DNA from: Rhodospirillaceae bacterium
GTDB taxonomy: Bacteria > Pseudomonadota > Gammaproteobacteria > Steroidobacterales > Rariloculaceae
Length of the DNA: 64,000 nucleotides
Assembly: GCA_024638465.1 (NCBI GenBank)
Contig: JAHEKF010000005.1
Location: forward strand, 1 to 64,000
Reading direction: 5' to 3'
Below the pieces are notes generated by a model that saw only the letters and a list, made by a program, of their open reading frames with translations, did no database searches and was not told the DNA's origin. Positions 30,042 to 46,908 of this stretch are shown here, one piece after another. Both the position numbers and the translations under genes were made by a program. Each line of letters opens with the position of its first letter. Positions within the stretch are counted from its first letter, which is position 1.

Positions 30042-30830
30042 CTAGCGTAGCTCGATTGAGCTGAGTTGCTTCTCGATACGGTCGCGACAGGCGATCAACG
30101 CTTCGACGAGTCCGGATTCGTTACCGTAGAAACGCGTCGACGGTACCGCGACGGATATTCCGAGGTGGCTATCGTAAGGATCGGTAACCAGCGCGCCCAC
30201 AGCGCAGATGCCGAGCGATTGTTCTTCGAGATCGTACGCGACGCCGTGTTCCCGAACTCGATCGAGTTCTGCTCGCAATTGTTCTTCGGAAGTAATTGTG
30301 TTCTTCGTCAAAGGCTCCATATCGAGATTCGATAAGACACGTTCCAGCGCGGTGGGTTCGAGTCCTGCGAGGAGAGCCTTGCCGTTCGCGCAGCAGTGCA
30401 GAGGGAACGATACACCCATGCCGGAGATGGCTCGAAGTCGTCGTTCTTCCGATGTTGCCTGATCGATAAATACAGCGACGCTGCCATCTCTGATCGACAG
30501 GTCGACCGTTTCTTTCAGGTGGTCGGATAGCCATCGCAGATGAGGGCGAATGACGTCGTGGAAATGACTCCGCGCGGCCGATCCAAGCGATACGAGGCCG
30601 GGGCCAAGCCGCACGCCGCGCCCGGATTCGCCCGAGGCCAGGAGTCGCTCCGCAGCCAGCGCGCCGACGATACGCTGTACCGTCGACCGCGGCAGTCCGA
30701 CCGCTGCCGAAATTTCACCGAGGCTCAAGGGCTTGCCGCGCCTCTCGAGCAACCGCAGGATCGTTGCGGCGCGTTCGATAACCTGAATTCCGCCGCCGGA
30801 CGGCGTAGCGTTTGTGTTCCTGCGCGCCAT
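30042..30830 (-). CDS. IclR family transcriptional regulator
   Basis: A 262-residue regulator with an N-terminal winged helix-turn-helix (about 16-75; LSLGEISAAVGLPRSTVQRIVGAL region) and a C-terminal IclR effector domain (about 85-250), including LHCCANGKALLAG and SLGICAVGALV. IclR proteins often sense aromatic acids, glyoxylate or sugar acids. It is divergent from the SSS/transhydroxylase-like operon, with 92 bp between the start codons, the classic layout for control of that operon. The half-site at 30865-30877 in this gap is shared with the TonB receptor promoter. Confidence 0.92.
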   Translation of the reverse strand: MARRNTNATPSGGGIQVIERAATILRLLERRGKPLSLGEISAAVGLPRSTVQRIVGALAAERLLASGESGRGVRLGPGLVSLGSAARSHFHDVIRPHLRWLSDHLKETVDLSIRDGSVAVFIDQATSEERRLRAISGMGVSFPLHCCANGKALLAGLEPTALERVLSNLDMEPLTKNTITSEEQLRAELDRVREHGVAYDLEEQSLGICAVGALVTDPYDSHLGISVAVPSTRFYGNESGLVEALIACRDRIEKQLSSIELR

Positions 30831-30922: not shown

Positions 30923-32404
30923 GTGAACGCTGGAATTCTGATTGCCGTTCTCGTCTACGAGATCGCCATCATACTCGGTGTCGGATTGTGGCTCGCCAGG
31001 CGCGAGGCTGCGCGGCCGCACGGAGAAGGAGACTTTGCGCTTGCCGGGCGCGATCTTCCGGTGCCCGTCGTCGCGATCACACTGGCGCTGACGGTTCTGG
31101 GTACGGCACACATCCTCGGGATCTTCGAGCTGGCATGGTTCCTCGGTGCCGCAGCCGTCTGGTTCAGCCTGGCGCATGTCATCCTGCTCGTTCTTGTCTG
31201 CCTCTCGACCGGACTCTGGGTGCGTCGGCTCGGATTGACGACGGTCCCGGAGATACTCGACCGGCTATACGGCGAGAAAACGCGGTTGCTCGTGTCCTGC
31301 ACGATGGCCGGTGTCGTGTTCGGCATCCTGACGATCGAAACGCAAGGCATAGGTATCGTCATTTCGTCGATGACGGGATGGGAGATCCGCAACGGCGCGA
31401 TCGTCGGCGGGATACTCGGAATCTTCTATGTGGTGCTGGCCGGCATGAAGGAAATCGGCTGGCTGAATCTCGTCAACGCCATCGTGATGTATCTGGGTTT
31501 GATACTCGCCACGATCTTCCTTGCGCTCCGGTTGCCGGGCGGGAACTACGACAGCGTGGCGGAGTTCTATACGTCCAGCGGCGACGATTTCATGCTGAGT
31601 ATCTACGGTACGCCCGAGATCTTCCTGACTTTCGCCCTGGGCGTAACCATTGCGGTCGTTTTCAGTCAGGGCATCAATCAGATGCTGATGCAGCCTGCGA
31701 TGTCGGCGGCAAGCGAACAGACGGTCCGCAGAAGCCTTTGGATTGCGGCACCGCTTAACGGCATGTTCGGCGTGTTCGCCGTCGTAATCGGCTTAACTGC
31801 GAAGACTATTCCCGAGTTCGCTGAGCTCGGCCCGAAGGTTGCGGCAACGACGATGCTCGTGAACTACCTGCCGCCATGGCTGGCCGCGCTGCTGCTGGCG
31901 TCGTTCCTGGCCGCAATACTGTCGACGTTCGCGATGACGAGTCTCGCGCCTGCGACGATTCTTGGTATGGACATCTACAAGAATCTCTATCGGCCCGACG
32001 CGACGGAAGACGAGATGGCGAGCTTCCTTCGTAAAACCATCATCGTGCTTGCTGTCGTCGCGATGAGTATCGCGGCGTTTTTGCCGCCCATCCTCGCGGC
32101 CATGGAATGGTTGTTTTCGTGGCTCGTTCCGGTCTTCTGGGTCATCGTGTTCGGGCTCTTCTGGAAACGCAACAGTACCGTTGCCGTACTCACCCTGGTC
32201 GCGGCGTGGGTCGCGAATTCACTCTGGTCGTTCAGTGCGCTTCCGGAGTTGCTCGGCATGGGCAGTGTCACGAATCCCTATGTCACGCTGACGGTTACCC
32301 TGAGCATCGGGATTGTCGGGAATCTGCTGTCGGAAGGCAGGGACGGTTACTTCAGGTCGAGCGAGTACAGGTCGCTGATGGCGACTCAAGGCGAGGCGGG
32401 CTGA
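30923..32404 (+). CDS. Sodium:solute symporter (SSS family)
   Basis: A 493-residue transporter with about 13 helices. GTG 30923 is chosen because GAGGGAGG lies 3-10 nt upstream. Family landmarks include the first core helix (TVLGTAHILGIFELAWFLG), GVVFGILTIETQGIGIVIS and LAALLLASFLAAILSTFAMTSLAP, where Ser/Thr of the eighth helix help form the sodium site. It would import an organic solute with sodium. It is the first gene of the operon encoding the molybdoenzyme, so it probably brings in that enzyme's substrate. The stop is 4 bp before the next small gene. Confidence 0.92.
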   Translation: MNAGILIAVLVYEIAIILGVGLWLARREAARPHGEGDFALAGRDLPVPVVAITLALTVLGTAHILGIFELAWFLGAAAVWFSLAHVILLVLVCLSTGLWVRRLGLTTVPEILDRLYGEKTRLLVSCTMAGVVFGILTIETQGIGIVISSMTGWEIRNGAIVGGILGIFYVVLAGMKEIGWLNLVNAIVMYLGLILATIFLALRLPGGNYDSVAEFYTSSGDDFMLSIYGTPEIFLTFALGVTIAVVFSQGINQMLMQPAMSAASEQTVRRSLWIAAPLNGMFGVFAVVIGLTAKTIPEFAELGPKVAATTMLVNYLPPWLAALLLASFLAAILSTFAMTSLAPATILGMDIYKNLYRPDATEDEMASFLRKTIIVLAVVAMSIAAFLPPILAAMEWLFSWLVPVFWVIVFGLFWKRNSTVAVLTLVAAWVANSLWSFSALPELLGMGSVTNPYVTLTVTLSIGIVGNLLSEGRDGYFRSSEYRSLMATQGEAG

Positions 32405-32668: not shown

Positions 32669-32686
32669 ATGAGTTCGCTTTTATGA
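32669..32686 (+). promoter_or_regulatory. Five-codon leader frame overlapping the molybdoenzyme start
   Basis: ATG-AGT-TCG-CTT-TTA-TGA starts 9 nt after AAGGA, better placed than any site before ATG 32683. Its TGA (32684-32686) overlaps the ATG of the large gene as ATGA. Ribosomes finishing the leader could restart on the molybdoenzyme, giving translational coupling. A sequencing indel is an alternative. Confidence 0.35.
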
Positions 32687-35649
32687 GAGTCGCTATTCTG
32701 TTTTACGGCATCGCGCTGGCCCTGCGACTGACCGCCAGGTTCTACCCTGAATTCCGGGCGCGGCTCAAGGAACGCGACCTGACGGTGCAGATGAAACTTC
32801 AGGACGAGTCCATCAAGCGCTACTTCGTACTGCGAGGCGGGCGTATCCGGACGCGAGCGGCTGTCCACCCGAATCCCGATGTCACGCTGTTCTTCAAGAA
32901 CACGCGCGTTGCGCTGAATGTGCTGATGCCGCCACAGGACTACGGGGAAATGGTTCATGCCGGCAAGACGTTTCAGATGGGCGTGCAGGGCAAGGACGAT
33001 CTGCTGGTCTGGTGGATGCAGACGCTGAACAGGATGCTCGGCGCCCGCTGGAAGTTCGGCATCGAGCTTGACGATGGCGAGGTGCGCTACGTCAATAACA
33101 CCAATGGCGGTCCCGTCCACGTGTACGTAAAGGATGGCAGGATCGTTCGCATTACGCCGATCGACTTCGAGGACAAAGACGCAGCGTCCTGGGAGATCGA
33201 GGCGCGCGGCCGCAAGTTCTCGCCGCCGCGACGCGCAACCGTGACGTCGTATTCGCTCGCCTGGAAGTCGATGATCGAATCTAAGGATCGCAACCTCTAT
33301 CCGATGAAGCGTGTCGACTTCGATCCCGATGGTGAACGCAATCCACAGAATCGCGGTATTTCGGGCTACGAACGTATCAGCTGGGACGAAGCGCTGGATA
33401 TCGTAGCGAGCGAGTTCAAGCGCGTTAAGCGCGATTTCGGCCCGGGTGCTATCGCAGTAAGCCACGGCTCACACCACAACTGGGGCAACGTCGGTTATTA
33501 CCTGAGTTCGATGATTCGATTCTTCAACGGAATCGGCTTCACGCGCGTCATCCACAACCCGGACAGCTGGGAAGGCTGGTACTGGGGCGGTGTCCATCAC
33601 TACGGCTACAGCATGCGTCTCGGTAATCCCGAGCCGTTCGGTCAGGTCGAGGACTGCCTCAACAATGCCGAGATGATCGTGTTCTGGTCGAGCGACCCCG
33701 AGGCGACGAACGGGCTCTACGCAGGGTACGAAGGCACTATTCGTCGGCTCTGGGCGAAAGAACTCGGTATCAAGATGGTGCATATCGATCCGCACTGGAA
33801 TCACTCGGCCGCTTTCTACGGCGGCAAGTGGATAGCACCTCGTCCCGGCACGGACCCTGCGCTCGCCCAGGCGCTCTGCTATGTCTGGATCGACGAAGAT
33901 CTCTACGACAAGGAATTTGTCGAGAAACGGACAACGGGATTCGACGAGTGGGCGGCGCATGTCATGGGCCGCGAAGACGGCACGCCAAAGACGCCGGAGT
34001 GGGCCGAGCAGGAAACAGGTGTGCCGGCGCGAGAGATTCGCGCGCTCGCGCGCGAGTGGGGCAGGAAGCGCACCTACCTCGGTGCCGGCGGACTCGGCGG
34101 CGGTTTCGGCGGTGCCTGCCGTACTGCGACGGGTGCTCAATGGGCGCGAATGATGATCATCCTCATGGCAATGCAGGGGATCGGCAGGCCGGGCGTCAAC
34201 TTCGGCAATCTGCAGCAGGGCGCGCCGCTGGATTACACCTTCTGGTTCCCGGGTTATGCGGAAGGCGGTATTTCAGGCGATCTGACATTCACGGGCTCGG
34301 CGCTGATTACCTATCCGCGCATGCCGCATGTCATGAGCATGAATCCCGTCAAGCAGGCGATTCCGAGAATCCAGTTACCCGAGGCCATTCTCGACGGCGA
34401 GGCCGAAGGTTATTTCACCGATCCAACGTCCATGACGGGCCAGTTCCTGTCGTTCAAATATCCGGCGCCGGGACACTCGAAGATTCAGATTCTCTATAAG
34501 TATGGCGGCGCGTCGTTAGGGACCATGAACAATACGAACCGCTGGGTTCGGATGTACCAATCGGACAAGTTGCCGTTCGTTGTCAGTCAGTCGATCTGGT
34601 TCGAGGGTGAGACGAAATTCGCGGACGTCATTCTTCCGGCGTGTACCAACTTCGAACGCTGGGACATCGGTGAGTGGACCTCGGCCGGCGGGTACGGCCA
34701 CCAGTTCTATAACCAGGTCAATCACCGCGTCGTTACGTTACAGGCCAAATGTATCGAGCCGCTCGGTGAGTCGAAGTCCGATTACCAGATCTTCTCCGAG
34801 CTCGCGCAACGTATGGGGCTTGGCCTTTACTTTACGGAAGGCTGTAGCGAGATCGACTGGGTCAAGCGTGTCTTCGACGCTTCGGATGTGTCGCAACTGA
34901 TTTCCTGGAAGGAATTCCAGCGAAAAGGCTACTACGTCATTCCGGCTGATGCCCCCAAAGCACGTGCGCCGACGGCGTTCAAGTGGTTCAACGAGGGCCG
35001 CAAGAAGGATGTGCCGGAGCCGCATCCACTTCCCGGTGATTACGGTGATGAGTACCTCGAGGGATTGCAGACGCAGTCCGGCAAGATAGAGTTTATTCCG
35101 GAGACGCTAAAGAACTTCGAGGATCCGGAGCGGCCGCCGTTGAATCGCTATATGCCGAGCTGGGAAGGTACGCAATCCGCGAACCTGATCGACAAATATC
35201 CGATTCAGCTGGTGTCTTCGCATGCCCGCTACAGCTTCCACACCCTCGGCGATGGCAAGAACAGCGTCATAAACGACATCCACGATCACCGAACACTGAT
35301 AGACGGCCACTACTACTGGATAGCACGAGTCAATCCGCGCGATGCTGACGCGCGGAAAATTCGAGACAACGATTTGATTCGGCTCTATAACGATCGCGGA
35401 TCCGTCATCTGCGCTGCCCGGCTGACGGAGCGGATACGACCCGGCGTCGTCCATGCTTGCGAATCCTCGGCCGTTTACGACCCCGTCGGTCAGCCGGGCA
35501 AATCAGCCGACCGCGGCGGCTGTGTCAATCAACTGACGAATCATCGTTCGCAGTCGAAGAAATCCTCGTCAATGGCACCGAACGCCTGCCTGATCGAGGT
35601 CGAGCGATGGCAGAACGCAGAATCCGAGCCTGCCGAGGACGTCGCGTGA
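32683..35649 (+). CDS. Pyrogallol hydroxytransferase (transhydroxylase)-like molybdoenzyme large subunit with N-terminal SCP2-like domain
   Basis: A 988-residue molybdopterin oxidoreductase of the DMSO reductase superfamily. From residue about 132 onward it aligns, with few gaps at first, to AthL, the large subunit of pyrogallol-phloroglucinol transhydroxylase. The AthL catalytic residues His144, Asp174 and Tyr404 and the Mo ligand Ser175 (positions from memory) correspond to His264 (SHHNWGN), Asp294-Ser295 (NPDSWEGW) and Tyr525 (FPGYAEGG). No N-terminal FeS motif and no Tat signal is present, also as in AthL. Residues about 25-118 are extra and SCP2-like (LTVQMKLQDE, PDVTLFF, FQMGVQGKDDLL). 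The substrate may be a polyhydroxylated ring; the exact one is not known. Its stop overlaps the FeS subunit start. Confidence 0.9.
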   Translation: MRVAILFYGIALALRLTARFYPEFRARLKERDLTVQMKLQDESIKRYFVLRGGRIRTRAAVHPNPDVTLFFKNTRVALNVLMPPQDYGEMVHAGKTFQMGVQGKDDLLVWWMQTLNRMLGARWKFGIELDDGEVRYVNNTNGGPVHVYVKDGRIVRITPIDFEDKDAASWEIEARGRKFSPPRRATVTSYSLAWKSMIESKDRNLYPMKRVDFDPDGERNPQNRGISGYERISWDEALDIVASEFKRVKRDFGPGAIAVSHGSHHNWGNVGYYLSSMIRFFNGIGFTRVIHNPDSWEGWYWGGVHHYGYSMRLGNPEPFGQVEDCLNNAEMIVFWSSDPEATNGLYAGYEGTIRRLWAKELGIKMVHIDPHWNHSAAFYGGKWIAPRPGTDPALAQALCYVWIDEDLYDKEFVEKRTTGFDEWAAHVMGREDGTPKTPEWAEQETGVPAREIRALAREWGRKRTYLGAGGLGGGFGGACRTATGAQWARMMIILMAMQGIGRPGVNFGNLQQGAPLDYTFWFPGYAEGGISGDLTFTGSALITYPRMPHVMSMNPVKQAIPRIQLPEAILDGEAEGYFTDPTSMTGQFLSFKYPAPGHSKIQILYKYGGASLGTMNNTNRWVRMYQSDKLPFVVSQSIWFEGETKFADVILPACTNFERWDIGEWTSAGGYGHQFYNQVNHRVVTLQAKCIEPLGESKSDYQIFSELAQRMGLGLYFTEGCSEIDWVKRVFDASDVSQLISWKEFQRKGYYVIPADAPKARAPTAFKWFNEGRKKDVPEPHPLPGDYGDEYLEGLQTQSGKIEFIPETLKNFEDPERPPLNRYMPSWEGTQSANLIDKYPIQLVSSHARYSFHTLGDGKNSVINDIHDHRTLIDGHYYWIARVNPRDADARKIRDNDLIRLYNDRGSVICAARLTERIRPGVVHACESSAVYDPVGQPGKSADRGGCVNQLTNHRSQSKKSSSMAPNACLIEVERWQNAESEPAEDVA

Positions 35650-36482
35650 AAAAGTGGAACATGATTGTCGACGTCGCTCGCTGTAACAACTGTTACAACT
35701 GCTTTGTAGCGACGAAAGACGAATACGTGGGCAACGAGTATCCGGGATACACGGCACCACAACCGCTGCACGGTCATGCGTGGGTCGATATCGAGCGTAC
35801 CGAATCGGGTCAGTGGCCGATGGTGGAAGCGGCGTTTCGACCCGTGATGTGTAATCACTGCGACGATGCGCCCTGCATCAAAGCGGCGAAAAACGACGCC
35901 GTCAAACAACGTTACGACGGAATCGTGATCATCGATCCCGAGCTCGCAAAAGGCCAGAAGCAGATCGTCGATGCCTGCCCCTATGGTGCGGTCTACTGGA
36001 ACGAGGAATTACAGCTCCCTCAGGCCTGGCCGTTCGACGCCCATTTGCTCGATCGCGGCTGGGATAAAACCAAGCTCGAGAAAGTTTGCCCGACCGATGT
36101 CTTCAGGTCCGTGAAAGTCAGCGACGAAGAAATGCAGCAGATCGCCGCTGACGAAGAGCTTTCGACGCTCGAGCCGCTGGACGGCGCCAGGCCGAAGGTC
36201 TATTACAAGAACTCACATCGCTTCGATACCGGCTTTATCGGCGGTACGATCGTCAGCGAAAAGGACGGAGTCGAAGATTGCGTCGAGGGAGTCAAGGTCG
36301 TGGCTCGAAGTAAGGACGGAGAGATCGGCCGCGCCGAATCAGATGCTTTTGGCGACTTCAAGATCGGCAAAATTCAAAAGAACCTGGGCGCGGTAACGCT
36401 GAACATCGAACACGAGTCGGGATCCCGATCTATCGATATCGACTTCGGCGAAAGCATCTACCTGGGTCCCGTGACGATCTAG
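35646..36482 (+). CDS. Transhydroxylase-like FeS small subunit lacking one [4Fe-4S] ligand set
   Basis: A 278-residue partner of the large subunit, beginning at GTG 35646 that overlaps the preceding TGA (GTGA). Length (AthS is about 274), order and the C-terminal beta-domain (PKVYYKN to the end) match AthS. Cys13, 16, 19 (CNNCYNC), Cys69, 72, 77 (CNHCDDAPC), Cys111 (CPYG) and Cys148 (VCPTD) remain. Four ligands expected from AthS are Thr23, Trp128, Asp131 and Leu144. By the DmsB/NrfC ligand pattern these four belong to one cluster, so two clusters should remain. It would shuttle electrons or prime the Mo site. Confidence 0.88.
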   Translation: MKKWNMIVDVARCNNCYNCFVATKDEYVGNEYPGYTAPQPLHGHAWVDIERTESGQWPMVEAAFRPVMCNHCDDAPCIKAAKNDAVKQRYDGIVIIDPELAKGQKQIVDACPYGAVYWNEELQLPQAWPFDAHLLDRGWDKTKLEKVCPTDVFRSVKVSDEEMQQIAADEELSTLEPLDGARPKVYYKNSHRFDTGFIGGTIVSEKDGVEDCVEGVKVVARSKDGEIGRAESDAFGDFKIGKIQKNLGAVTLNIEHESGSRSIDIDFGESIYLGPVTI

Positions 36483-36518: not shown

Positions 36519-36902
36519 GTGTCAGCAGCGACATTCAACTTTGATCTGACCGATGCCGCGGTGATCCTGAGGTTGATCTGTGCGCTGTTTTTTTTGCCGC
36601 ATATCACCTTTAAAATAGTCGGTAGCCCACCCCCGGCGCTCGAGGTCTTTACGGTCGCCGGATTCAAACCACCGGCGTTGTTCATGAGGCTCGCGGTTGT
36701 TGTCGAGATCGTGGCGGGTTTGGGTCTGCTGCTGGGGATCTACACGCAATGGGCGGCTTTGGTTGCGGCGACCAGTCTCGCCGTCGCTGCAGGAGCGGTT
36801 TACAAGATCGAGCGCAAGTGGATGTGGAACCGCGGCGGAATGGAGTATTGCGTATTCTGGGCGATTACCTGCGTTGCCGTCGCGATGCTTCACTGGAACT
36901 GA
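36519..36902 (+). CDS. DoxX-family membrane protein
   Basis: A 127-residue protein with four predicted helices and the DoxX features LRLICALFFLPHITFKI and LVVVEIVAGLGLLLGIYTQW-type second and third helices. The GTG start at 36519 has GCGAGG about 11 nt upstream. DoxX proteins are linked to sulfur oxidation, quinone or redox homeostasis in different bacteria. Here the gene follows the FeS subunit by 36 bp, so it might connect the molybdoenzyme to the membrane quinone pool; that is inference. Confidence 0.75.
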   Translation: MSAATFNFDLTDAAVILRLICALFFLPHITFKIVGSPPPALEVFTVAGFKPPALFMRLAVVVEIVAGLGLLLGIYTQWAALVAATSLAVAAGAVYKIERKWMWNRGGMEYCVFWAITCVAVAMLHWN

Positions 36903-36956: not shown

Positions 36957-37982
36957 ATGATTAATGCAGCAATTGTAGGATTGGGCTGGTGGGGACAGAC
37001 CCTCGTCGAGGGCGTGTCGGACCAGAGCGACGCAATCCGTTTTACGGCCGGAGTTACGAGCCGGTCTTCGGACGAGGCGCGCGCATTCGCGAGCGCCCAC
37101 AACTTTTCCTTGCGTCCCAAATATGAAGACGTACTCAATGACCCGGATATCGACGCCGTCGTACTGGTTACTCCCAACTCACTGCATGCGGATCAGGTCG
37201 TCGCCGCGGCTCAGGCCGGAAAGCACGTTTTCTGCGAAAAGCCGTTGGCGCTGACGACCGCGGACGCTGAACGAGCCACCGTCGCGGCCGAGTCCGCGGG
37301 GACGGTTTTAAGTGTCGGCTATAATCGGCGCCTGCATCCCGAAATGGTCAGGCTGCGGAATCAGATCGATGCGGATGACCTCGGCGTGATTCTGCACGTC
37401 GAATCCACAATGACTTTTCCGAACGCACTGTATCTCAAAGCGGATCAGTGGCGGGCGAGTCGAGAGGAAGCCCCGGCGGGCGGCCTGATGCCGATGGGTG
37501 TCCATGCGGTGGATGGCATGATCGATCTCGTCGGATTCGTCGACGAGGTTTATTGCCAGAGTTTTCGTCGCGTGGTCGAGGTCGACGCGGATGACACGAC
37601 TTCGATACTGTTTCGCATGCGCGAGGGGATGTCGGCTTATCTCGGTACCATGACCGCAACCGGCGGCGCGTTCAGCTTTCAGGTTTTCGGCTCAAAGGGG
37701 TTCGTGAGGCTGGAGGGAAAAACGCACGAGGCGGGCGCATCTTCCGAGGAGCGCCGGACGGAACTCTTCGACAAGTGCATCTTCAAGCCGATCAAAGGCC
37801 CGGCTGAGGTCTGGACCGCCGAACCGTTCGACCTCACGCGCGCGGCGCTTGAGGCGTTCGCCGCCGCAGCGACAGGGGAGGCGCCGGCACCGATTCCAGC
37901 CGAGGAGCTCGTGCACGGCGTCGCGGTAACGGAAGCGATTATTAAATCCGCTGCCTCGCACCGTCCCGAGAAAGTCGAGTAA
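36957..37982 (+). CDS. Gfo/Idh/MocA family oxidoreductase (molybdoenzyme operon)
   Basis: A 341-residue NAD(P)-dependent oxidoreductase with VGLGWWGQTLV at the N-terminus and FCEKPLALT. It is closely related to the protein at 12.2 kb, with similar substrate-domain residues (RASREEAPAGGLMPMGVHAVD against the equivalent WRGSTEEAPAAGMTGMGVH stretch). It is the last gene of the 30.9-38.0 kb run and probably handles a cyclic polyol or keto compound connected with the molybdoenzyme reaction. A hairpin follows the stop. Confidence 0.87.
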   Translation: MINAAIVGLGWWGQTLVEGVSDQSDAIRFTAGVTSRSSDEARAFASAHNFSLRPKYEDVLNDPDIDAVVLVTPNSLHADQVVAAAQAGKHVFCEKPLALTTADAERATVAAESAGTVLSVGYNRRLHPEMVRLRNQIDADDLGVILHVESTMTFPNALYLKADQWRASREEAPAGGLMPMGVHAVDGMIDLVGFVDEVYCQSFRRVVEVDADDTTSILFRMREGMSAYLGTMTATGGAFSFQVFGSKGFVRLEGKTHEAGASSEERRTELFDKCIFKPIKGPAEVWTAEPFDLTRAALEAFAAAATGEAPAPIPAEELVHGVAVTEAIIKSAASHRPEKVE

Positions 37983-38002
37983 CCAGGCACTAGCGGCGGA
38001 TC

Positions 38003-38031
38003 GGGTCCCGGAATCCGGATTACGGACCCGG
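38003..38031. repeat. Near-perfect inverted repeat between convergent genes
   Basis: CGGGTCC-cgg-AATCC and GGATT-ac-GGACCCG pair over 12 bp with a small internal mismatch and almost no loop. It lies between the stops of the oxidoreductase and the MFS gene, where a bidirectional terminator would be expected, but T-runs are absent. The core is shared with 8728-8750. Confidence 0.45.
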
Positions 38032-38047
38032 GTCGATCTGGTTCGAC

Positions 38048-39331
38048 TTATTCCTGAGCCGCAGCGATGGGTTGGTCCGGCACCAGAATAAAAAGCGCGA
38101 GCGCCGACAAGCCCGCGAATACTGCGGCGAGTATCAGGGCGAAAGCAAAGCTGCCGGTGTATTGAACGATAAACCCGGTCGTGATCGGGGCCAGCGCGCC
38201 GCCGATGTAGCCGCCGAAATTGGTGATGCCGCCGAGTGATGCGGTGCGATTTGGCGGAGCGACCTCCGCAATTAGCGACCAGTTCATGCTCGTACAGCAG
38301 CCGTTGCAGAAAAGCGCGCCAGCGATACAGGCGACCGCGACGAACGTGCTGGCCGCGTAGGCGGCGCCCAACGTGAACAGCGCCATTCCGATGAGTGCCG
38401 AGATGTAAGTTCCTTTACGCACCGTGATTGGCGCATGGCCTGCGGCGAGCAGCCGGTCGGCGAGCCAGCCGCTCCCGATGCTGCCGAACACGCCGAAACC
38501 GAAAGGAATCGCAGCAACCCAGCCGGTCATGCGGACATCCAGACCACGCTGGATCTCCAGATAGCCGGGCAGCCAGGTCCCGAACAGCCACAACATATAG
38601 ATGGTTCCGAAGTAGCCGAGCACGAGCCCCCAGGTTGCACGATAGGCGAACAGGCGCCGCCATTCGGCGAAGCTCGGCTTCTCGACTTTGGCAGTTTCCT
38701 CACGCCCGAGTTCGGCCAGTTCCTGCGCCGTGAGATCTACTTCGCCGGGATCACGATAAAGCGCGTACCAGAGCGCTGCGAGCACGAGACCGACGCCGCC
38801 AAGAAACACGAACATCGCGCGCCAGCCGAACGCCAGCATCAGCGCCGTCAGTATCGGCGGCGCCAGCGTCGGTCCCAGTGTGGAAACGCAGTTCCAGGTG
38901 CCGGTTACCAGCGCCCGGTTGCGGATCGGATACCACTTGCGCGTCACCGACGCGGCGCAAGGGAACATCGGCGCTTCGCCAAGTCCGAGCCCTGCCCGCG
39001 CGATGGCGAATTGCCAGAGGTTGGTGACGAAACCGGCAGCGCCCTGTGCGATCGACCAGAATGCCAGCGCGCCACCCAGCAATCTCCGCGCACCGAGGCG
39101 GTCGACCAATGCACCGCCCGGCAGTTGCGCGAACGCATACGCCCAGAGAAATGCTGACAATAACAAGCCCATCTGCGCGATCGAGAGGCCGAGTTCTTCC
39201 CGAATCAACGGATTGGCGATCGCAAGTGCGCTGCGGTCGAAATAGTTCAGGGTGCCCGCGGCCACTAGAAGAACAAGCGTGGATCTCTGGGTTCGCTTGA
39301 GTCGCGGCGTGCTCGATGTCGAATCAACCAT
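38048..39331 (-). CDS. MFS transporter, sugar-acid/anion:cation symporter type
   Basis: A 427-residue, 12-helix major facilitator protein. ATG 39331 is used; a TTG two codons upstream is also possible. Landmarks are FDRSALAIANPLI in helix 1, the loop 2-3 motif GALVDRLGARR, and RAGLGLGEAPMFPCAASVTRKWYP in helix 4, as in the ACS family that includes glucarate and hexuronate transporters. It is the last gene of the sugar-acid operon read from 47.7 kb, and its likely role is import of that acid. Confidence 0.88.
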   Translation of the reverse strand: MVDSTSSTPRLKRTQRSTLVLLVAAGTLNYFDRSALAIANPLIREELGLSIAQMGLLLSAFLWAYAFAQLPGGALVDRLGARRLLGGALAFWSIAQGAAGFVTNLWQFAIARAGLGLGEAPMFPCAASVTRKWYPIRNRALVTGTWNCVSTLGPTLAPPILTALMLAFGWRAMFVFLGGVGLVLAALWYALYRDPGEVDLTAQELAELGREETAKVEKPSFAEWRRLFAYRATWGLVLGYFGTIYMLWLFGTWLPGYLEIQRGLDVRMTGWVAAIPFGFGVFGSIGSGWLADRLLAAGHAPITVRKGTYISALIGMALFTLGAAYAASTFVAVACIAGALFCNGCCTSMNWSLIAEVAPPNRTASLGGITNFGGYIGGALAPITTGFIVQYTGSFAFALILAAVFAGLSALALFILVPDQPIAAAQE

Positions 39332-39372
39332 GCTCAATGCGCCGCCCCCGAGTTAACGCCGGGAAATTTATT

Positions 39373-40428
39373 TCACCCATCGGCGCAAGCCGCTTCGACG
39401 ATCGCCGTATCGATTCCGCATACAGCCGCGGTCTCCGTAACCTGGCGCCACGTGGTTTCGTCCACTCGCAGCTCCGATCGGTCGCTGGCTCTGCGCTGCG
39501 AACGCTCTCCCGGAATGCGTACGTTTTCGCCAGGCTCCGAGGGGCGCGAAGACTTCACGAACTCGATATAGCGACGAATCTCGTCCGCGATTCGATCGTC
39601 CGAGTCGAGACGATCCGGATCGATATAGATTCCGAGCATGCCCTGTTCCAATCGGGTTTTACCCTCGGAGCTGCAGCCGCCGCCGGCGATCGCTCCGGCG
39701 AGCAGCTCGACAACCAGCCCGAGGCCGAAACCCTTGTGCCCGCCGAGCGGCAGTATCGCCCCGCGTGGCGGGCCGTAGAATTCATTCGGATCGTTGGTCG
39801 GATTGCCATCCGCATCGAGAATCAGGCCGTCCGCAACCGTTTCGCCCGCGTTGCGAGCGACCTGAAGTCTGCCTTCCGCTACCGCGGCTGTGGAGACATC
39901 AACGATCAACGGCGTTCCCCCGGGTACCGGGATACCAACGGAGATCGGGTTGACGGAGAGACGCGGGTCGCGCCCGCCGGCCGGCACCACGAACATGCCG
40001 AAGCCAGTGGAGTTGACGAAATGCAGTCCTATGAGGTTCGCTGCGGCAGCCATCTCCGACCAGTGACCGACCCGCCCGAGATGGCCGCAGTTGCGAAGGC
40101 CGACGACGGCCATCCCCTGTTTCCGGCATTTCTCGATGCCGACATCGACCGCTCGCTTGCCGAGCCATTGGCCGAAACCGAGCTGGCCGTCGGCCACGGT
40201 CATGGTTTCGGTATCGATGAGAATCTTAAGATCGCGATTTGGCAGAACCTTGCCCTGCCTGAACCATTCGATGTATGTCGGAATCCGAATCAGTCCGTGT
40301 GAGTCGTAACCGGCCAGGTTCGCGATAATCAGGTGGTCGGCAATGCATTCGGCTTCCTCGTCACCGCAACCAATGCTCGCGAAGATTGCGGCAACCAGCT
40401 GTTCAAGAGGCTCCGGTTTCAGTTTCAT
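39373..40428 (-). CDS. Malate/L-lactate/ureidoglycolate dehydrogenase family protein (Ldh2)
   Basis: A 351-residue NAD(P)-dependent dehydrogenase of the LDH2/MDH2 family, distinct from Rossmann LDHs. The ATG at 40428 gives the family start MKLKPEPLEQLVAAIF; longer in-frame options are unsupported Arg-rich sequence. Hallmarks are YDSHGLIRIP, RNCGHLGRVGHW and LGGHKGFGLGLVVELL. It would oxidise a 2-hydroxy acid or reduce a 2-oxo acid, and in this operon may act on a sugar acid. A Cys-containing loop (AGGGCSSEG) is near the end. Confidence 0.87.
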   Translation of the reverse strand: MKLKPEPLEQLVAAIFASIGCGDEEAECIADHLIIANLAGYDSHGLIRIPTYIEWFRQGKVLPNRDLKILIDTETMTVADGQLGFGQWLGKRAVDVGIEKCRKQGMAVVGLRNCGHLGRVGHWSEMAAAANLIGLHFVNSTGFGMFVVPAGGRDPRLSVNPISVGIPVPGGTPLIVDVSTAAVAEGRLQVARNAGETVADGLILDADGNPTNDPNEFYGPPRGAILPLGGHKGFGLGLVVELLAGAIAGGGCSSEGKTRLEQGMLGIYIDPDRLDSDDRIADEIRRYIEFVKSSRPSEPGENVRIPGERSQRRASDRSELRVDETTWRQVTETAAVCGIDTAIVEAACADG

Positions 40429-40457
40429 GAATTCGTTTCCGCGCGAGCACAGGTGCG

Positions 40458-41369
40458 CTAGCGCCCCCACTCCAGCGCTATTGGCGCGAGGTCTGAAGCC
40501 AGCGCCAACAATTCCGCGCGCGTTGCGGGATGCAGTGGCGACAGCGGATGCCTGACGGCATCGCTTGCAATGACGCCGCCCTCTTTCATCACGGTCTTGG
40601 TCGCGCGCAAACCGCACTGACGATTCTCGAAATTGATCAGCGGCAGTATCCGGGCGTATTGAGCATTTGCGTCTTCCATCTCGTGGTTTCGGTGGCTTTC
40701 GAGAACCGGCCTGATCAGATCCGGTAGCAACGCGCTCGGCATCGTGCCGGTAGCGCCTGCGTTCAGGTCGGCGAGTAGCGTTATCGCTTCTTCGCCGTCG
40801 AATGGACCCTCGATGGCATCGCCGCCTGTCTCGATGAGACTGCGCAATTTCGCCGCCGCCATCGGCGTTTCGATTTTGAAGTAGGAGGCCAGCGGTATTT
40901 CTTTTGCGAGGCGAGCCAGCAAGGGCACCGACAGCTCGACGCCGCTGAGTGGCGCATCCTGCACTATGACGGGAACGCCGCCCGACTCGGCAACGGCGGA
41001 GAAATGCTCGATCAGTTGAGCCTCGCCAGCGCGCAGGGTCGCGCCATGATAAGGCGGCATGAGCATCAGCATCGCCGCGCCGGCTGCAGCGGCGCGCCGT
41101 GCGCGTTCGGCTGCGACCTGGGTGGAGAAATGACTGCAGGTAACGATCATCGGAACGCGCCCCGCGACATGGCGCATGCACAGCTCCAACAGGATATCGC
41201 GTTCTTCGTCAGTCAGAAGAAACTGCTCCGAGTAGTTCGCCAGAATGCAGATGCCATCCACGCCCTGATCGATCATGCAGTCGAGCACGCGCTTCTGACC
41301 CTCGAGATCGAGTGCGCCGCTGTCGTCGAATGGCGTGGGGGCGATCGGAAATACGCCGGCGTAAGTCAT
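40458..41369 (-). CDS. DapA-family lyase, likely keto-deoxy sugar acid dehydratase
   Basis: A 303-residue TIM-barrel aldolase/dehydratase. The ATG at 41369 gives the family N-terminus MTYAGVFPIAPTPFDD. The Schiff-base Lys is Lys165 in SYFKIETP, and Tyr107 (PPYHG) is the usual proton-relay Tyr. Next to a UxaA/GarD-type dehydratase and an aldehyde dehydrogenase it is best read as a 5-keto-4-deoxyglucarate or 2-keto-3-deoxy-acid dehydratase giving 2-oxoglutarate semialdehyde. Authentic lysine-biosynthesis DapA is less likely from context. Confidence 0.85.
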   Translation of the reverse strand: MTYAGVFPIAPTPFDDSGALDLEGQKRVLDCMIDQGVDGICILANYSEQFLLTDEERDILLELCMRHVAGRVPMIVTCSHFSTQVAAERARRAAAAGAAMLMLMPPYHGATLRAGEAQLIEHFSAVAESGGVPVIVQDAPLSGVELSVPLLARLAKEIPLASYFKIETPMAAAKLRSLIETGGDAIEGPFDGEEAITLLADLNAGATGTMPSALLPDLIRPVLESHRNHEMEDANAQYARILPLINFENRQCGLRATKTVMKEGGVIASDAVRHPLSPLHPATRAELLALASDLAPIALEWGR

Positions 41370-41388
41370 GGTCTTGCAGCGCTCCCCG

Positions 41389-42819
41389 CTATGGTGCGAT
41401 GTAGGCAGTCTTGACGACGGTATAGAACTCGGCCGCATAGCTGCCTTGTTCGCGTGGACCGTAACTCGAATGTTTTCGGCCGCCGAAGGGAACGTGATAA
41501 TCGACGCCTGCGGTGGGCAGATTCACCATGACCATTCCGGCCTGGGACTTGCGGCGGAATATCGAAGCGGCTTTAAGGCTGTTCGTGCAGATTCCGGCAC
41601 TCAAACCGAAGTCGGTGTCATTGGCGACACGCAATGCCTCATCGAAGTCCCTGACCTTGATGATGGACGCGAACGGGCCGAATATTTCTTCGCGACTGAC
41701 GCGCATGTCGTTGCTTGCGCCGAGGAACACCGCGGGCGCCTGATAGTGTCCCGGATGCTCGCGCTCCAGCAATTCGCCGCCGACAACTTCGCAGCCTTCT
41801 TCTCTTGCCAGCTCGAGATAAGACACGTTCTGATTCAGCTGGTTCTTATCGACCACCGGGCCGATCTGAGTTTCGGGATCGAGCGCATCGCCGACTCGCA
41901 GGGAATTCGTTGCTGCCAGCAGTTTCTCGACGAACGCGTCGTGGATCTTCTCCGTTACGATCAGTCGTGACGACGCGGTACAGCGTTGACCGGTCGAGAA
42001 GAACGCGCCATTGACGCTCACCGACACGGCCGTGTCCAGGTCGGCGTCGTCGAGAATGACCATCGGATTCTTGCCGCCCATCTCGAGCTGGACCTTCTTC
42101 TGTGTCTCCGCGCACTTGACCGCGAGCGCCTGTCCGGTGGTGACCGAGCCCGTGAAAGAGACCGCGTGGATGCCGGGGTGCTCTACGATTCTTGCGCCGA
42201 CGCTCGATCCCGGACCGATCACCAGATTCAGCAGGCCTTTCGGAAGCCCGGCTTCGTCAAGGATCCTCGCGAGCTCCCAGGCGCAGCCCGGCACGAGCTC
42301 TGCCGGTTTGAAGATGACGGCGTTGCCGTAGCACAGTGCGGGCGCGATCTTCCAGGCCGGGATCGCGATCGGAAAGTTCCACGGCGTGATAATGCCGATG
42401 ACACCGAGCGCCTCGCGAGTGATCTCGACTTCGACACCGGGGCGAACCGAGTCGATTTTCTCTCCGCGCTGGCGCAGACACTCACCCGCGAAAAAACGGA
42501 AAACCTGCGCTGCACGAACCGTCTCGCCAATGCCCTCGGCCAGGGTTTTGCCTTCCTCGCGACTCAGTAACCGCCCGAGTTCCTCTTTACGAGCCATGAT
42601 CGCCGTTCCTGCGGCATCCAACACATCGTGGCGCACCTGCGGGCTTGCCTCTGCCCAGGCCGGTTGAGCGGCTTGCGCCGCCGCGACTGCGGTATCGACG
42701 GCGTTCGCATCGGCGCGAGCGTATTCGCCGACCACGTCGTCGGTATTGGAGGGATTGACGTTCAGCATCACGTCCGGGCTCTCGACCCATTCGCCGCCGA
42801 TCAGATTTGCATGCATCAT
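41389..42819 (-). CDS. Aldehyde dehydrogenase, likely 2-oxoglutarate semialdehyde dehydrogenase
   Basis: A 476-residue NAD(P)-dependent aldehyde dehydrogenase. Catalytic residues are Asn148 (PWNFP), Glu246 (LEMGGKNP) and Cys280 (GQRCTASSR). The start is MMHANLIGGEW at 42819; extending further would overlap the upstream dehydratase. In the operon it lies between the UxaA/GarD-type and DapA-type genes, the arrangement expected for the last oxidation to 2-oxoglutarate. Succinate-semialdehyde dehydrogenase is an alternative reading. Confidence 0.9.
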   Translation of the reverse strand: MMHANLIGGEWVESPDVMLNVNPSNTDDVVGEYARADANAVDTAVAAAQAAQPAWAEASPQVRHDVLDAAGTAIMARKEELGRLLSREEGKTLAEGIGETVRAAQVFRFFAGECLRQRGEKIDSVRPGVEVEITREALGVIGIITPWNFPIAIPAWKIAPALCYGNAVIFKPAELVPGCAWELARILDEAGLPKGLLNLVIGPGSSVGARIVEHPGIHAVSFTGSVTTGQALAVKCAETQKKVQLEMGGKNPMVILDDADLDTAVSVSVNGAFFSTGQRCTASSRLIVTEKIHDAFVEKLLAATNSLRVGDALDPETQIGPVVDKNQLNQNVSYLELAREEGCEVVGGELLEREHPGHYQAPAVFLGASNDMRVSREEIFGPFASIIKVRDFDEALRVANDTDFGLSAGICTNSLKAASIFRRKSQAGMVMVNLPTAGVDYHVPFGGRKHSSYGPREQGSYAAEFYTVVKTAYIAP

Positions 42820-42835
42820 AAATACAGATTCCGTC

Positions 42836-44518
42836 TTAAAGTGATACACCGCGCTTCCACGGCAGAAAGTCTTCCTGACCGAGGCGCTGCGCTCGAGTTT
42901 GATAGCGCCCGCTCGCGGTCTCAACCAGAAGTTCGAGCAGATCTTCAGCGAGCTCCGGCGGGGTCGCCTCGCCCCGAATGATCGGGCCGCAGTCGAAGTC
43001 GATCATGTCGGGTAATCGCTGTGCAACCGACGTGTTCGTCGAGATCTTGATGACCGGGCTCACGGCATTTCCGGTCGGCGTCCCGAGTCCGGTCGAGAAG
43101 ATCATCGCCGTCGCATGCGCCCCGGCCATGGCCGTCGTCGACTCGACGTCGTTCCCCGGGGTGCACAACAGGTTCAGGCCCGGATTCGACACAATCTGTG
43201 GATAATCCAGTACATCGCGGACCAGCGATGAGCCACCCTTGCGCGCCGCGCCGGCGGACTTCATCGCACCCGTGATCAGGCCGTCGACGATATTTCCGTG
43301 TGAAGGGTTCTGGCCGAAATCCGCGCCGCTGCGGGCGGCAGCCTGCTGGTAAACCTCCATGAGTCCGAGAAATCGCTGTGCCAATTCGGGTTTTTCGCAG
43401 CGATCGACGAGATGCTGTTCGACGCCGCTGAGCTCGGGGAACTCTGCGAGGATGACGCCCGCTCCGAGCGCCGCCAGGCGATCGGACACCTCGCCGATCA
43501 CGGGATTGGCCGAGATTCCCGAGAAGCCGTCGGACCCGCCGCACTCCATGCCGACGATCAGTTTGTCGAGTGAGGCAGGCTCGCGGCGCAGCTCGTTGGC
43601 TTCGACCACGCCCTCGAAGGTAGCGCGCAGCGCATTGGACATCATTTCCTGTTCCGAACGGCTTTTCTGCTGCTCGAAGAAGACAATCGGTTTGGCGAAA
43701 TTCGGATCGCGCTTGTCGATCTCCTCGCGAAGCATGTCCATCTGGGCTTTCTGGCAGCCCAGGCTCAGCACGGTCGCGCCCGCCACGTTCGGATGTGTGA
43801 TATACCCGGCCAGGAGTCCGCACAATGCTTCCGTGTCGCTATCGGTTCCGCCGCAGCCCTGGGCATGAGCGAGAAACCGAATACCGTCGACGTTGGGGAA
43901 CAGGCGGTCTGAATTCGAGCTGGTTGCGTTGTTGCGGGCACTTTCGACTTTCCCGGTATCGTTGCCATCCCGGTGGGCACGAACCAGATCGCTGACGTAC
44001 TGCTCGTAGGGCGTGCCATGCGCAAGCCCCAGCGGCCGCAGCAGGGCGTCCTTCATCAGCGCCAGGTTGCGATTTTCGCAAAAGACCATCGGCACGACGA
44101 GCCAGACATTCGCGGTACCGACCGCGCCGTTGGGACGGTGATAGCCGTCAAATCTGGCGTCGAGCCAGCGTGACACGTCGGGCGGTTGCGGGCTCGCTGA
44201 CGCGCCCGGGCGCACTACCGCGGGCTCGACTGCGTTGCGCAGATTCCCGGTCGTAATTCGCTCACCGCGGCGAATCGGTCCCGCCGCTTTGCCGACGGTA
44301 ACGCCATACATCGTGACCACGTCGCCGTCGGCGAGGTCGCAGCTCGCAAATTTGTGTTTCGCGGGTATCGCATCCCGCAGCACAATCGTCGAAGCGTCGT
44401 CCAGCGCGATCTCCTGGCCGCTCGGAAGATCCTGCAGCGCGACGATCGCGTTGTCCGAGACGTGAATTCTCAGGAATTTCGCATTACGCGACGTCATGAG
44501 CGAAATGGGATCAGCCAA
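42836..44518 (-). CDS. UxaA/GarD-family altronate or galactarate dehydratase
   Basis: A 560-residue dehydratase with an N-terminal SAF-like domain (about 10-90) and the large UxaA core: AHAQGCGGTDSD, GCQKAQMDM, VGMECGGSDGFSGISANP and the C-terminal FSTGLGTPTGNAVSPVIKISTN. I use the TTG at 44518, which has GAGG about 8 nt upstream; ATG 44497 seven codons in lacks a site. It would remove water from an aldonate or aldarate with Fe2+. Overlap-free spacing (16 bp) to the ALDH gene supports coexpression. Confidence 0.9.
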   Translation of the reverse strand: MADPISLMTSRNAKFLRIHVSDNAIVALQDLPSGQEIALDDASTIVLRDAIPAKHKFASCDLADGDVVTMYGVTVGKAAGPIRRGERITTGNLRNAVEPAVVRPGASASPQPPDVSRWLDARFDGYHRPNGAVGTANVWLVVPMVFCENRNLALMKDALLRPLGLAHGTPYEQYVSDLVRAHRDGNDTGKVESARNNATSSNSDRLFPNVDGIRFLAHAQGCGGTDSDTEALCGLLAGYITHPNVAGATVLSLGCQKAQMDMLREEIDKRDPNFAKPIVFFEQQKSRSEQEMMSNALRATFEGVVEANELRREPASLDKLIVGMECGGSDGFSGISANPVIGEVSDRLAALGAGVILAEFPELSGVEQHLVDRCEKPELAQRFLGLMEVYQQAAARSGADFGQNPSHGNIVDGLITGAMKSAGAARKGGSSLVRDVLDYPQIVSNPGLNLLCTPGNDVESTTAMAGAHATAMIFSTGLGTPTGNAVSPVIKISTNTSVAQRLPDMIDFDCGPIIRGEATPPELAEDLLELLVETASGRYQTRAQRLGQEDFLPWKRGVSL

Positions 44519-44527
44519 CGAGGTGCC

Positions 44528-45523
44528 TCAGCGTATCGCGATCGGGCGTACCGGCGATCCGGTGGCGCCTTTAAGCTGCAGCGGTGTCAGGATGAACAGG
44601 AATTCGTTGACGCTATCCTCGACGAGTCCGTCGAACCGGAGATTCTCGAGGTTCAGCACGCCGGTCTTCGTCATCAGCTCCTGGTGTACCGGAAACGCCA
44701 GCGACGCATCGGGATTCGGCACAACCTCGGTGCACCAGGAATCGCTGCCGACCATCGTGACCTGCCGCTCGGCAGCCCACTGCGCAACCGCGACACCGAT
44801 GCCCGGTGGATTGTCGTTATAAGCCGCGGGGTCGCTCCACAGCGAAGACCAGCCGTAGCGGAAGAACACGGCATCGCCGGGCCTGACGTCGGCCTGGGAC
44901 ATTCCCTGATCTTCGAGTGCGCCGATAACGTCCTCGACCGTCACTTCATAGCTGTTGGGTAACCGGGATACGCCCTTATAGCCCGCCACGTCGATGAGAA
45001 TGCCGCGTGTGACGATCGGCTTGATGTGCTCGACGCCGAGTCGTTGCAGCCCGCCCGGTGTATCCATCTCACTCGCCGTTACGCCGTTGTAAAAAACGAT
45101 CTCGACGCTGCCGTCCTCCATGACGACTTCCTGGCCGATGTGTCCGAGGCCGTCGAATTGCGTCCCGACCTGGCCGAGCTGGGTGGAGATGAACTCCTCG
45201 TTGGCGACCAGCCGATTGTCGCCCGCAGCCGGCCCCTTGGTCGGTAGAATCATCGAGTAGCTGCGCGATCCGAACAGAGGCATGCCTTGTTCGTAAAGCT
45301 GGCCCAACTCATAAACCCGCCCGGTCGTCGCCGTCTGCAGTGCCTCGAGGACCTTGCTGTCGGTGATTCGATTCGACGCGCCCGCCTGATCGCCGGGACC
45401 CCATTCGGGATTCGGCCACCACGGCCCCTGATCCCGCGTCTGCGAATCTGCGGCAAATGAAAAGAGCATGGCGACCACACCAGCCAGTAGCGCCGCCGGT
45501 GCCCGTTGTGATCTCGTCATCAT
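44528..45523 (-). CDS. Secreted cyclase-family protein with Gln at usual zinc-ligand positions
   Basis: A 331-residue member of the cyclase/kynurenine formamidase superfamily with a Sec signal (cleavage near AAD-SQ). The motif is usually H-x-G-T-H-x-D-x-x-x-H. Here it is Gln118-Val-Gly-Thr-Gln122-Phe-Asp124-...-His128, so both first His are Gln. The GTQ..D variant also occurs in other cyclase-family proteins, so this may be a distinct subfamily rather than decay. It likely opens a lactone, amide or cyclic bond in the periplasm. Gene spacing is 2 bp to the LVIVD gene upstream. Confidence 0.8.
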   Translation of the reverse strand: MMTRSQRAPAALLAGVVAMLFSFAADSQTRDQGPWWPNPEWGPGDQAGASNRITDSKVLEALQTATTGRVYELGQLYEQGMPLFGSRSYSMILPTKGPAAGDNRLVANEEFISTQLGQVGTQFDGLGHIGQEVVMEDGSVEIVFYNGVTASEMDTPGGLQRLGVEHIKPIVTRGILIDVAGYKGVSRLPNSYEVTVEDVIGALEDQGMSQADVRPGDAVFFRYGWSSLWSDPAAYNDNPPGIGVAVAQWAAERQVTMVGSDSWCTEVVPNPDASLAFPVHQELMTKTGVLNLENLRFDGLVEDSVNEFLFILTPLQLKGATGSPVRPIAIR

Positions 45524-45525
45524 GT

Positions 45526-46908
45526 TTACATCCCGTCCCAGCGATTCTCCAGGTCACCGCTGTTGCGCAGCACGTACATGCCTGTCGCGCCGGAGGTGAA
45601 AATGTTGCCGCGGGTATCGATCAGGACTTCCTGCGTAATCGAGATCGGCATATAACCCGACTGCGACCGCTTGGGCGTATCCGGATCGCCAGGCAGAAAC
45701 CAGCCTACTTCCCTGGGAAGACGCGGCTCGCTGATGTCGTAAACGCGAAGGCCTGCGTTGAAGTAAGCAAGATGAATCAAATCGTTGGGCTGCATGACGT
45801 CCTGGTTGTGAATTTCGTTGTTGACGTTATGTGGTCCGGACCTGCCGGGTCGATCGCAGAAATTGTCCCATGCGTAATCCTCGGGCACCTCCGGAATGGG
45901 GAAGTAGGACATCATGTACGGCTTCGTGGGATCGGCGTTCTGCACCATGATATTGGCGGAGATCGACTCGCCGCACTGCGCGATCTTCGGTTCACCATTA
46001 ACGTAGATGAGCCCGCGGTCCCAATAGGGAATCACCGAGTGAACCGATTGCGTGACGTTATTCACGAATGGCGGGACGATCTGCAGCCGGCCAACCACCT
46101 GTGGATTCGCTTTATCGCTGATATCGAGGGTAACGAGGTCCGGTGTGAAGCCCAGAACGGCCGTATTTCCGTCCGGGCTGATGATCGCCGGCCCGTGAAA
46201 ACTCGGAATGACGCCGTCCTGACGAATTTCTCCTTTTCTCTGCCCGAACTGAGCCCACTGTCCGACTTCAACCGGGTTGCGAGGATCGCGAACATCGAGG
46301 ATCTTGAATATCTGCGCTCGATAACCCGGGGCACTGGCGGACAAGTAAGCGTAGCCGTCATGCAGGATATTTCTGTGGACGCCGTAGGCTCCGGTTTCCC
46401 AATGGGAAAGTTCGACCGGGTTAACGGGATCGCTGATATCGAAGAGCATCACGCCTTCGTATGTCAGTTTGTCTTCCGGTATCTCCTCGGACTGAAACTC
46501 TGACATGAAGTTAATGGCGTTCTGCGTGTCGAATTGTGTCAGCTCTCGCGCCATGCCAACCATCAGCAGGTCGCCCTGAGAGGTGATCTGCGACATGTTG
46601 CCGTCCATCTCGTACTCGATGTCCCTGACGACGGTCGGGTCGGTCGGATCGGTAACGTCGATGATTCGTAGAATGGGCGGGCGAATCGGACCGTGACCCT
46701 CCTGGGTCTTCGAGACTGCCGTGTAGATGTACCAGCGACCTTCGTGCTGTTTGATCGTGAACTTACCGGCATAGCGGTCCTGATAGTCAAGGAAGCCGAT
46801 CGGTTCCATGTTGCTCGAATACCATCCGGACGGAATAGGGTCCGCCGGTAAGGTGCTCCCGGCCACGCAGAGCGAGATCAGCGCTAGCGTCATTGATGCC
46901 TGTTTCAT
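45526..46908 (-). CDS. LVIVD-type secreted beta-propeller protein
   Basis: A 460-residue protein with a Sec signal (about residues 1-20) and repeated LRIIDVTDPTDPTVV, LFDISDPVNPVELS, KILDVRDPRNPVEV and YDISEPRLPREVG blades, typical LVIVD repeats. It is paralogous to the lipoprotein at 8.9 kb, with a shared GPHxxN element and a Cys-containing FCDRPGRSGPH. The start overlaps the GntR stop (ATGA), so it is translationally coupled to the regulator. A periplasmic binding or scaffold role is possible. Confidence 0.72.
   Translation of the reverse strand: MKQASMTLALISLCVAGSTLPADPIPSGWYSSNMEPIGFLDYQDRYAGKFTIKQHEGRWYIYTAVSKTQEGHGPIRPPILRIIDVTDPTDPTVVRDIEYEMDGNMSQITSQGDLLMVGMARELTQFDTQNAINFMSEFQSEEIPEDKLTYEGVMLFDISDPVNPVELSHWETGAYGVHRNILHDGYAYLSASAPGYRAQIFKILDVRDPRNPVEVGQWAQFGQRKGEIRQDGVIPSFHGPAIISPDGNTAVLGFTPDLVTLDISDKANPQVVGRLQIVPPFVNNVTQSVHSVIPYWDRGLIYVNGEPKIAQCGESISANIMVQNADPTKPYMMSYFPIPEVPEDYAWDNFCDRPGRSGPHNVNNEIHNQDVMQPNDLIHLAYFNAGLRVYDISEPRLPREVGWFLPGDPDTPKRSQSGYMPISITQEVLIDTRGNIFTSGATGMYVLRNSGDLENRWDGM

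Follow-up and report, generated by a model that had tools for sequence, protein, structure and literature searches.

Related enzymes and the gene pair

The closest described relative of the enzyme considered here is the pyrogallol-phloroglucinol transhydroxylase (TH; AthLS/PgtLS) of Pelobacter acidigallici (PDB 4v4c), whose small subunit (4v4c_B) has cysteine at all 12 ligand positions and holds three [4Fe-4S] clusters. An excerpt of PMC10420851 cites TH as a member of the DMSO-reductase family in which a single catalytic cycle both inserts and abstracts oxygen, which means that no external electrons are needed. The full cluster chain runs FS0-FS1-FS2-FS3-FS4, with FS2 in the middle (excerpt of PMC8840923), and the FS4 cysteine set is already gone in TH. 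A TH-like two-gene unit was found in a stretch of 64,000 nucleotides from Rhodospirillaceae bacterium (assembly GCA_024638465.1, contig JAHEKF010000005.1, positions 1 to 64,000; this whole stretch is called the window), and its small subunit lacks one more set of cluster ligands. The two genes are as follows.

32683..35649, + strand: AthL-like catalytic subunit, 988 aa, with the domains PF21423, Molybdopterin and Molydop_binding
35646..36482, + strand: AthS-like small subunit, 278 codons, GTG start, with a GTGA overlap with the large-subunit stop

The nearest solved relatives of both genes were the two subunits of TH. The small subunit matched 4v4c_B with E 2.9e-64 over residues 3-274, the C-terminal beta domain included, and the large subunit matched 4v4c_A with E 0 (1037 bits) and the TH-type Pfam domain PF21423 with E 1e-28. 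The predicted structure of the small subunit had a pLDDT (predicted local distance difference test) of 91.8; Foldseek matched it to 4v4c_B over the full length (TM 0.92), and VIA-align gave Z 30.9 and a root-mean-square deviation (rmsd) of 1.6 over 270 aligned residues. The model was confident although the FS2 ligands are absent; its least confident stretch, residues 21-40 (block means 75 and 71), contains position 23. Judged by sequence, the small subunit belongs to a TH-family molybdenum enzyme, which is homologous to TH and likely works in a similar way, yet would form a distinct subfamily rather than being TH itself.

Loss of the FS2 ligands in the small subunit

Translation of 35646-36125 gave cysteines at positions 13, 16, 19, 69, 72, 77, 111 and 148 of the small subunit. 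To assign ligands to clusters, E. coli NarH was added to the family alignment, and the published NarH ligand table was used, in which C16/19/22/263 bind FS1, C26/244/247/259 bind FS2 and C184/187/192/227 bind FS3 (excerpt of PMC5338063). The relevant positions, all on the + strand, are listed below with the NarH residues on which they align.

35682..35702, +: Cys13, Cys16 and Cys19, FS1 ligands, kept (NarH C16, C19, C22)
35712..35714, +: Thr23 (codon ACG), in place of FS2 ligand 1 (NarH C26)
35850..35876, +: Cys69, Cys72 and Cys77, FS3 ligands, kept (NarH C184, C187, C192)
35886..35888, +: Ala81, site of an FS4-side cysteine (NarH C196); TH has Lys here
35976..35978, +: Cys111, fourth FS3 ligand, kept (NarH C227)
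36027..36029, +: Trp128 (codon TGG), in place of FS2 ligand 2 (NarH C244); Trp in 109/109 clade members
36036..36038, +: Asp131 (codon GAC), in place of FS2 ligand 3 (NarH C247); Asp in 109/109 clade members
36075..36077, +: Leu144 (codon CTC), in place of FS2 ligand 4 (NarH C259)
36087..36089, +: Cys148, fourth FS1 ligand, kept (NarH C263)

Thus the four replaced positions correspond to FS2, and the eight kept cysteines make up the complete FS1 and FS3 sets. By simple counting, the chance that four ligands drawn at random from 12 would make one whole cluster is 3/495 (0.6%). The alignment makes it nearly certain that the whole FS2 ligand set is gone, beyond the FS4 loss of TH, and since the FS1 and FS3 sets are complete, the protein should hold two [4Fe-4S] clusters, FS1 and FS3. 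The initial annotation, drawn up for residues 1-160 of 278 (35646-36125; the gene extends to 36482), had credited AthS with 12 cysteines and proposed that the four replaced positions form one cluster, that the other eight remain and that this is loss of a single cluster rather than random decay. All of this agreed with the TH sequence, the NarH alignment and the count.

Both subunits, the small-subunit fold over its full length and the FS1 and FS3 ligands are shared with TH, but TH keeps the four FS2 ligands, so that the window protein has eight of the 12 ligand cysteines of the TH family. The NarH/NrfC/DmsB four-cluster subunits likewise share the fold, the cysteine pairing scheme and the FS1 and FS3 ligands, whereas the ones aligned here retain both the FS2 and the FS4 cysteines and the window protein has neither set; of the four sets of a four-cluster ferredoxin only FS1 and FS3 are complete in it.

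A ninth cysteine, Cys212 (36279-36281), is part of the C-terminal transthyretin/CnaB-like beta domain and does not align with any cluster ligand. It was invariant in family alignment A1 and nearly invariant in A2.

Spread and age of the loss

Scanning the species genome collection returned 226 relatives, and the 80 best were taken forward. Homologues from plasmids, from genomes of the window's order and from other genomes were added; once duplicate sequences had been discarded, the family table had 119 members including TH. Positions 128 and 131 were Trp/Asp (W/D) in 109 members and Cys/Cys in 10, TH among them. Within the W/D members the FS1 and FS3 cysteines were invariant except for C16S in three. 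The other two former FS2 positions varied: position 23 was V in 50, T in 39, A in 8, N in 5, C in 4, D in 2 and E in 1, and position 144 was A in 45, V in 19, C in 14, G in 9, P in 6, L in 5, I in 5, M in 3 and E in 3. One W/D row retained both C23 and C144.

A tree of 105 rows was then built, with the trait columns excluded. The W/D rows (91 of the 105) fell on one side of a branch with support 95/76, present in 94% of 200 bootstrap trees, and going outward from this clade came TH, the other 12-Cys rows, a 16-Cys row and the ordinary four-cluster subunits. Sites 128 and 131 needed one change each on the tree, and within the clade site 23 needed at least three and site 144 at least four. The W/D state therefore arose once, adjoining TH, and the FS2 loss is ancient and common to a large, mainly proteobacterial clade rather than particular to the window gene. 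On the simplest reading, the cluster would have been lost once, with the W/D change, and the other two ligands would have decayed later in separate branches; the branching order itself suggests a passage from four to three to two clusters. So the loss was clean and shared by relatives, but it was not concerted, as had been annotated initially, because Trp128 and Asp131 are fixed in all 109 members and sites 23 and 144 drifted later and repeatedly. Sequencing error, a further doubt raised there, was excluded by the recurrence of Trp128 and Asp131 in 109 members from separate assemblies.

In each of three genomes (G835, G878 and G905) we found AthS paralogues with 16, 12 and 8 ligands, all three on one contig in G835 and G878 and on two contigs in G905. 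The G835 paralogues (loci L182 and L183) lie within about 30 kb, and there the 12-Cys and W/D gene pairs adjoin on opposite strands; the loci are L186/L187 in G878 and L184/L185 in G905.

The distribution of the clade is patchy, because class-wide sampling of 369 genomes yielded a single relative apart from the window genome. The order-wide search gave matches in 63 of 296 genomes, the window genome included. In phylum-wide sampling with profile A1 (398 genomes including the window's), close AthS was found in the window genome alone, and the matches elsewhere were more distant four-cluster-type subunits. The three members with Cys16 changed to Ser (L073, L101 and L104) have large subunits that cluster together in the large-subunit tree. 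A betaproteobacterial metagenome-assembled genome (G1043, which holds L110) had six AthS-family matches at E up to 1e-45, some of them with Cys23.

The large subunit and its N-terminal domain

The large subunit begins with a region that has no counterpart in TH, since TH residue 5 aligns with its residue 134.

32683..33087, + strand: SCP2-fold N-terminal domain of the large subunit, residues 1-135 (AF2 model, Foldseek, VIA-align)

The AF2 model of this domain, made from 43 sequences, had a pLDDT of 88.3. Its best Foldseek match was UbiJ-SCP2 (6h6o, E 6.6e-6), and VIA-align matched it to human SCP-2L (6z1w; Z 12.8, rmsd 2.6, 111 aligned residues) and to UbiJ (Z up to 9.4). Sequence identity to SCP2-fold structures was 9-17% in the best 29 VIA-align rows. 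The Pfam SCP2 profile matched weakly in 16 of the 43 members (best E 0.0026) and gave no match on the window large subunit at E up to 1. Residues 1-135 are thus predicted to adopt the SCP2 fold, a fold of lipid-binding type, as in UbiJ-SCP2, the SCP-2L domain of MFE-2 and the C-terminal domain of alkylsulfatase, with the difference that the window domain is fused to a molybdopterin enzyme; TH has no such domain.

Among uncut large subunits, 78 of the 79 paired with a W/D small subunit had the fusion, as against none of the six paired with a Cys/Cys (12- or 16-Cys) small subunit. This count leaves out ten rows unclassified by motif pattern, fifty W/D partners that were split or truncated at a locus end and one W/D small subunit with no large open reading frame (ORF) beside it. 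FS2 loss and the SCP2 domain thus characterise one and the same clade, but each may be a single event, so their co-occurrence is no proof of a functional link. At locus L179, on a Sinorhizobium terangae plasmid, the SCP2 domain is not fused to the AthL core but stands about 1.5 kb upstream.

Counted on the 4v4c_A alignment, residues H264, D294, S295 and Y525 of the large subunit correspond to TH H144, D174, S175 and Y404, of which we take His144, Asp174 and Tyr404 to belong to the active site and Ser175 to be the Mo ligand. Among 66 large subunits H264, S295 and Y525 were present in all and D294 in 65. The window large subunit has no cysteine before residue 325 and therefore no FS0 motif.

Proposed function and alternative explanations

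With FS2 gone and no FS0, the electron wire from Mo would be interrupted. Excerpts of PMC8840923 give distances of 6.6 Å for FS1-FS2 and 5.4 Å for FS2-FS3 in ethylbenzene dehydrogenase (EbDH) and place FS2 at a low potential, near -400 mV. Since homologous enzymes have FS2 in the middle of the chain, the altered electron path of the initial annotation is plausible, although this large subunit lacks cysteines for FS0, which would connect the chain with Mo. We propose that FS4 was lost before TH branched off and FS2 on the stem of the large, mainly proteobacterial clade, where the second and third FS2 ligand cysteines became the invariant Trp128 and Asp131, which probably pack the empty site. 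Without FS0, FS2 and FS4 there would be no continuous relay from Mo through the small subunit, and because the TH cycle needs no external electrons, the small subunit most likely has a scaffolding and stabilising role, and the large subunit, whose His/Asp/Tyr/Ser site is of the TH type, most likely catalyses a redox-neutral hydroxyl transfer with a phenol as its substrate. This substrate is probably hydrophobic and held by the fused SCP2-fold domain. We give a probability of roughly 60% to the combined reading of a small subunit that serves as a two-cluster scaffold and an enzyme that is a redox-neutral hydroxyl transferase. A wider proposal is more speculative and in our judgement doubtful, namely that the clade as a whole consists of electrically isolated, SCP2-fused Mo hydroxyl transferases acting on lipophilic phenols, in which the wire turned stepwise into a two-cluster scaffold (four, three, two) with Trp128 and Asp131 as a fixed plug or possibly a Trp relay.

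Several points weigh against the scaffold reading and its extension to the clade. The near-invariance of the FS1 and FS3 cysteines could also be a sign of redox use, and the invariant Trp/Asp pair might be more than filler. Resorcinol hydroxylase RhLS of Azoarcus anaerobius, whose large subunit is grouped with PgtL, hydroxylates resorcinol as a respiratory electron donor (excerpt of PMC10100899), so redox-neutral chemistry is not a family-wide property; RhLS differs from the proposed enzyme in this net hydroxylation feeding electrons to respiration. The sugar-acid type enzymes near the pair in the window do not point to phenols. On the phylogenetic side, the support of the W/D branch (95/76, 105-row tree) falls slightly short of the starred level, and the small-subunit tree has long branches for TH, L176 and L191. 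The CC/WD labels of the large-subunit tree were set by an identity threshold, and its single split partly repeats the label. L179 is the sole uncut W/D partner without the fusion.

The main rival is that the two-cluster subunit still conducts, with electrons passing between FS1 and FS3 directly or through Trp128, and that the net reaction of the enzyme is a hydroxylation or dehydroxylation. The FS1 and FS3 ligands are kept, an invariant Trp stands at a former FS2 ligand position in all 109 members, and the FS1-FS3 gap, which we estimate at roughly 15-17 Å from the EbDH distances (excerpt of PMC8840923), would make transfer slow yet not hopeless. However, FS4, the usual exit, is gone, the large subunit has no FS0 cysteines, and no gene resembling an electron-transfer partner was seen among the neighbours scanned in the window, so we regard a conducting subunit with a Trp128 relay as unlikely, though it deserves to be kept in mind. 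It is far less probable that the FS2 site holds another cofactor, for instance a cluster liganded by Asp131 or some other metal: Asp131 is indeed D in all 109 rows, but a single invariant ligand makes no site, Trp is an unusual metal ligand, and a re-ligated site was rejected on the free variation at positions 23 and 144.

The other two explanations concern the history of the gene. A recent, concerted loss in the window gene's own lineage would account for the absence of all four ligands, but it is hardly credible, and was rejected, given a W/D state that 109 rows have in common and that a single change on the tree accounts for, and the repeated changes at sites 23 and 144 within the clade. 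For a pseudogene or a sequencing error no supporting point was found in the window gene, whose reading frame is intact, whose start overlaps the large-subunit stop and whose product has 63-69% identity to its four nearest relatives; with the same W/D change in separate assemblies and 109 rows, this explanation was rejected as having practically no chance.

The TH family was already known, and the new part is the two-cluster, SCP2-fused subfamily; a literature search of open-licence papers found no account of a two-cluster AthS or of an SCP2-AthL fusion. The natural series of 16, 12 and 8 ligands, present even on one contig, would show an electron-transfer subunit stripped cluster by cluster with its fold retained, and it makes testable which purpose the clusters serve in a transhydroxylase, whose reaction needs no electrons. 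The fusion to an SCP2-fold domain offers a handle on the substrate of a widespread, uncharacterised enzyme group.

Genomic surroundings

The genes around the pair in the window were as follows.

30042..30830, - strand: IclR-type regulator (PF01614, E 2.6e-42)
30923..32404, + strand: sodium:solute symporter upstream of the pair (PF00474, E 4e-36)
36519..36902, + strand: DoxX membrane protein after AthS (PF07681, E 4.3e-13)
36957-47729: sugar-acid catabolism-like group (Gfo/Idh, MFS, DHDPS, aldehyde dehydrogenase, galactarate/altronate dehydratase, cyclase, GntR)

Judged by eye from the sequence, relative L034 has a similar symporter ORF in the same place and an IclR-like ORF after the pair, and relatives L031 and L033 have a DoxX-like ORF after AthS. 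In four annotated plasmid relatives (Paraburkholderia, Ensifer, Burkholderia and Salipiger) the pair lies near VOC, fumarylacetoacetate-hydrolase-type and TetR genes and near OmpW or outer membrane transport protein genes, with an acyl-CoA synthetase in two of the four. Unlike the window's own neighbours, these gene contents would fit aromatic or hydrophobic substrates.

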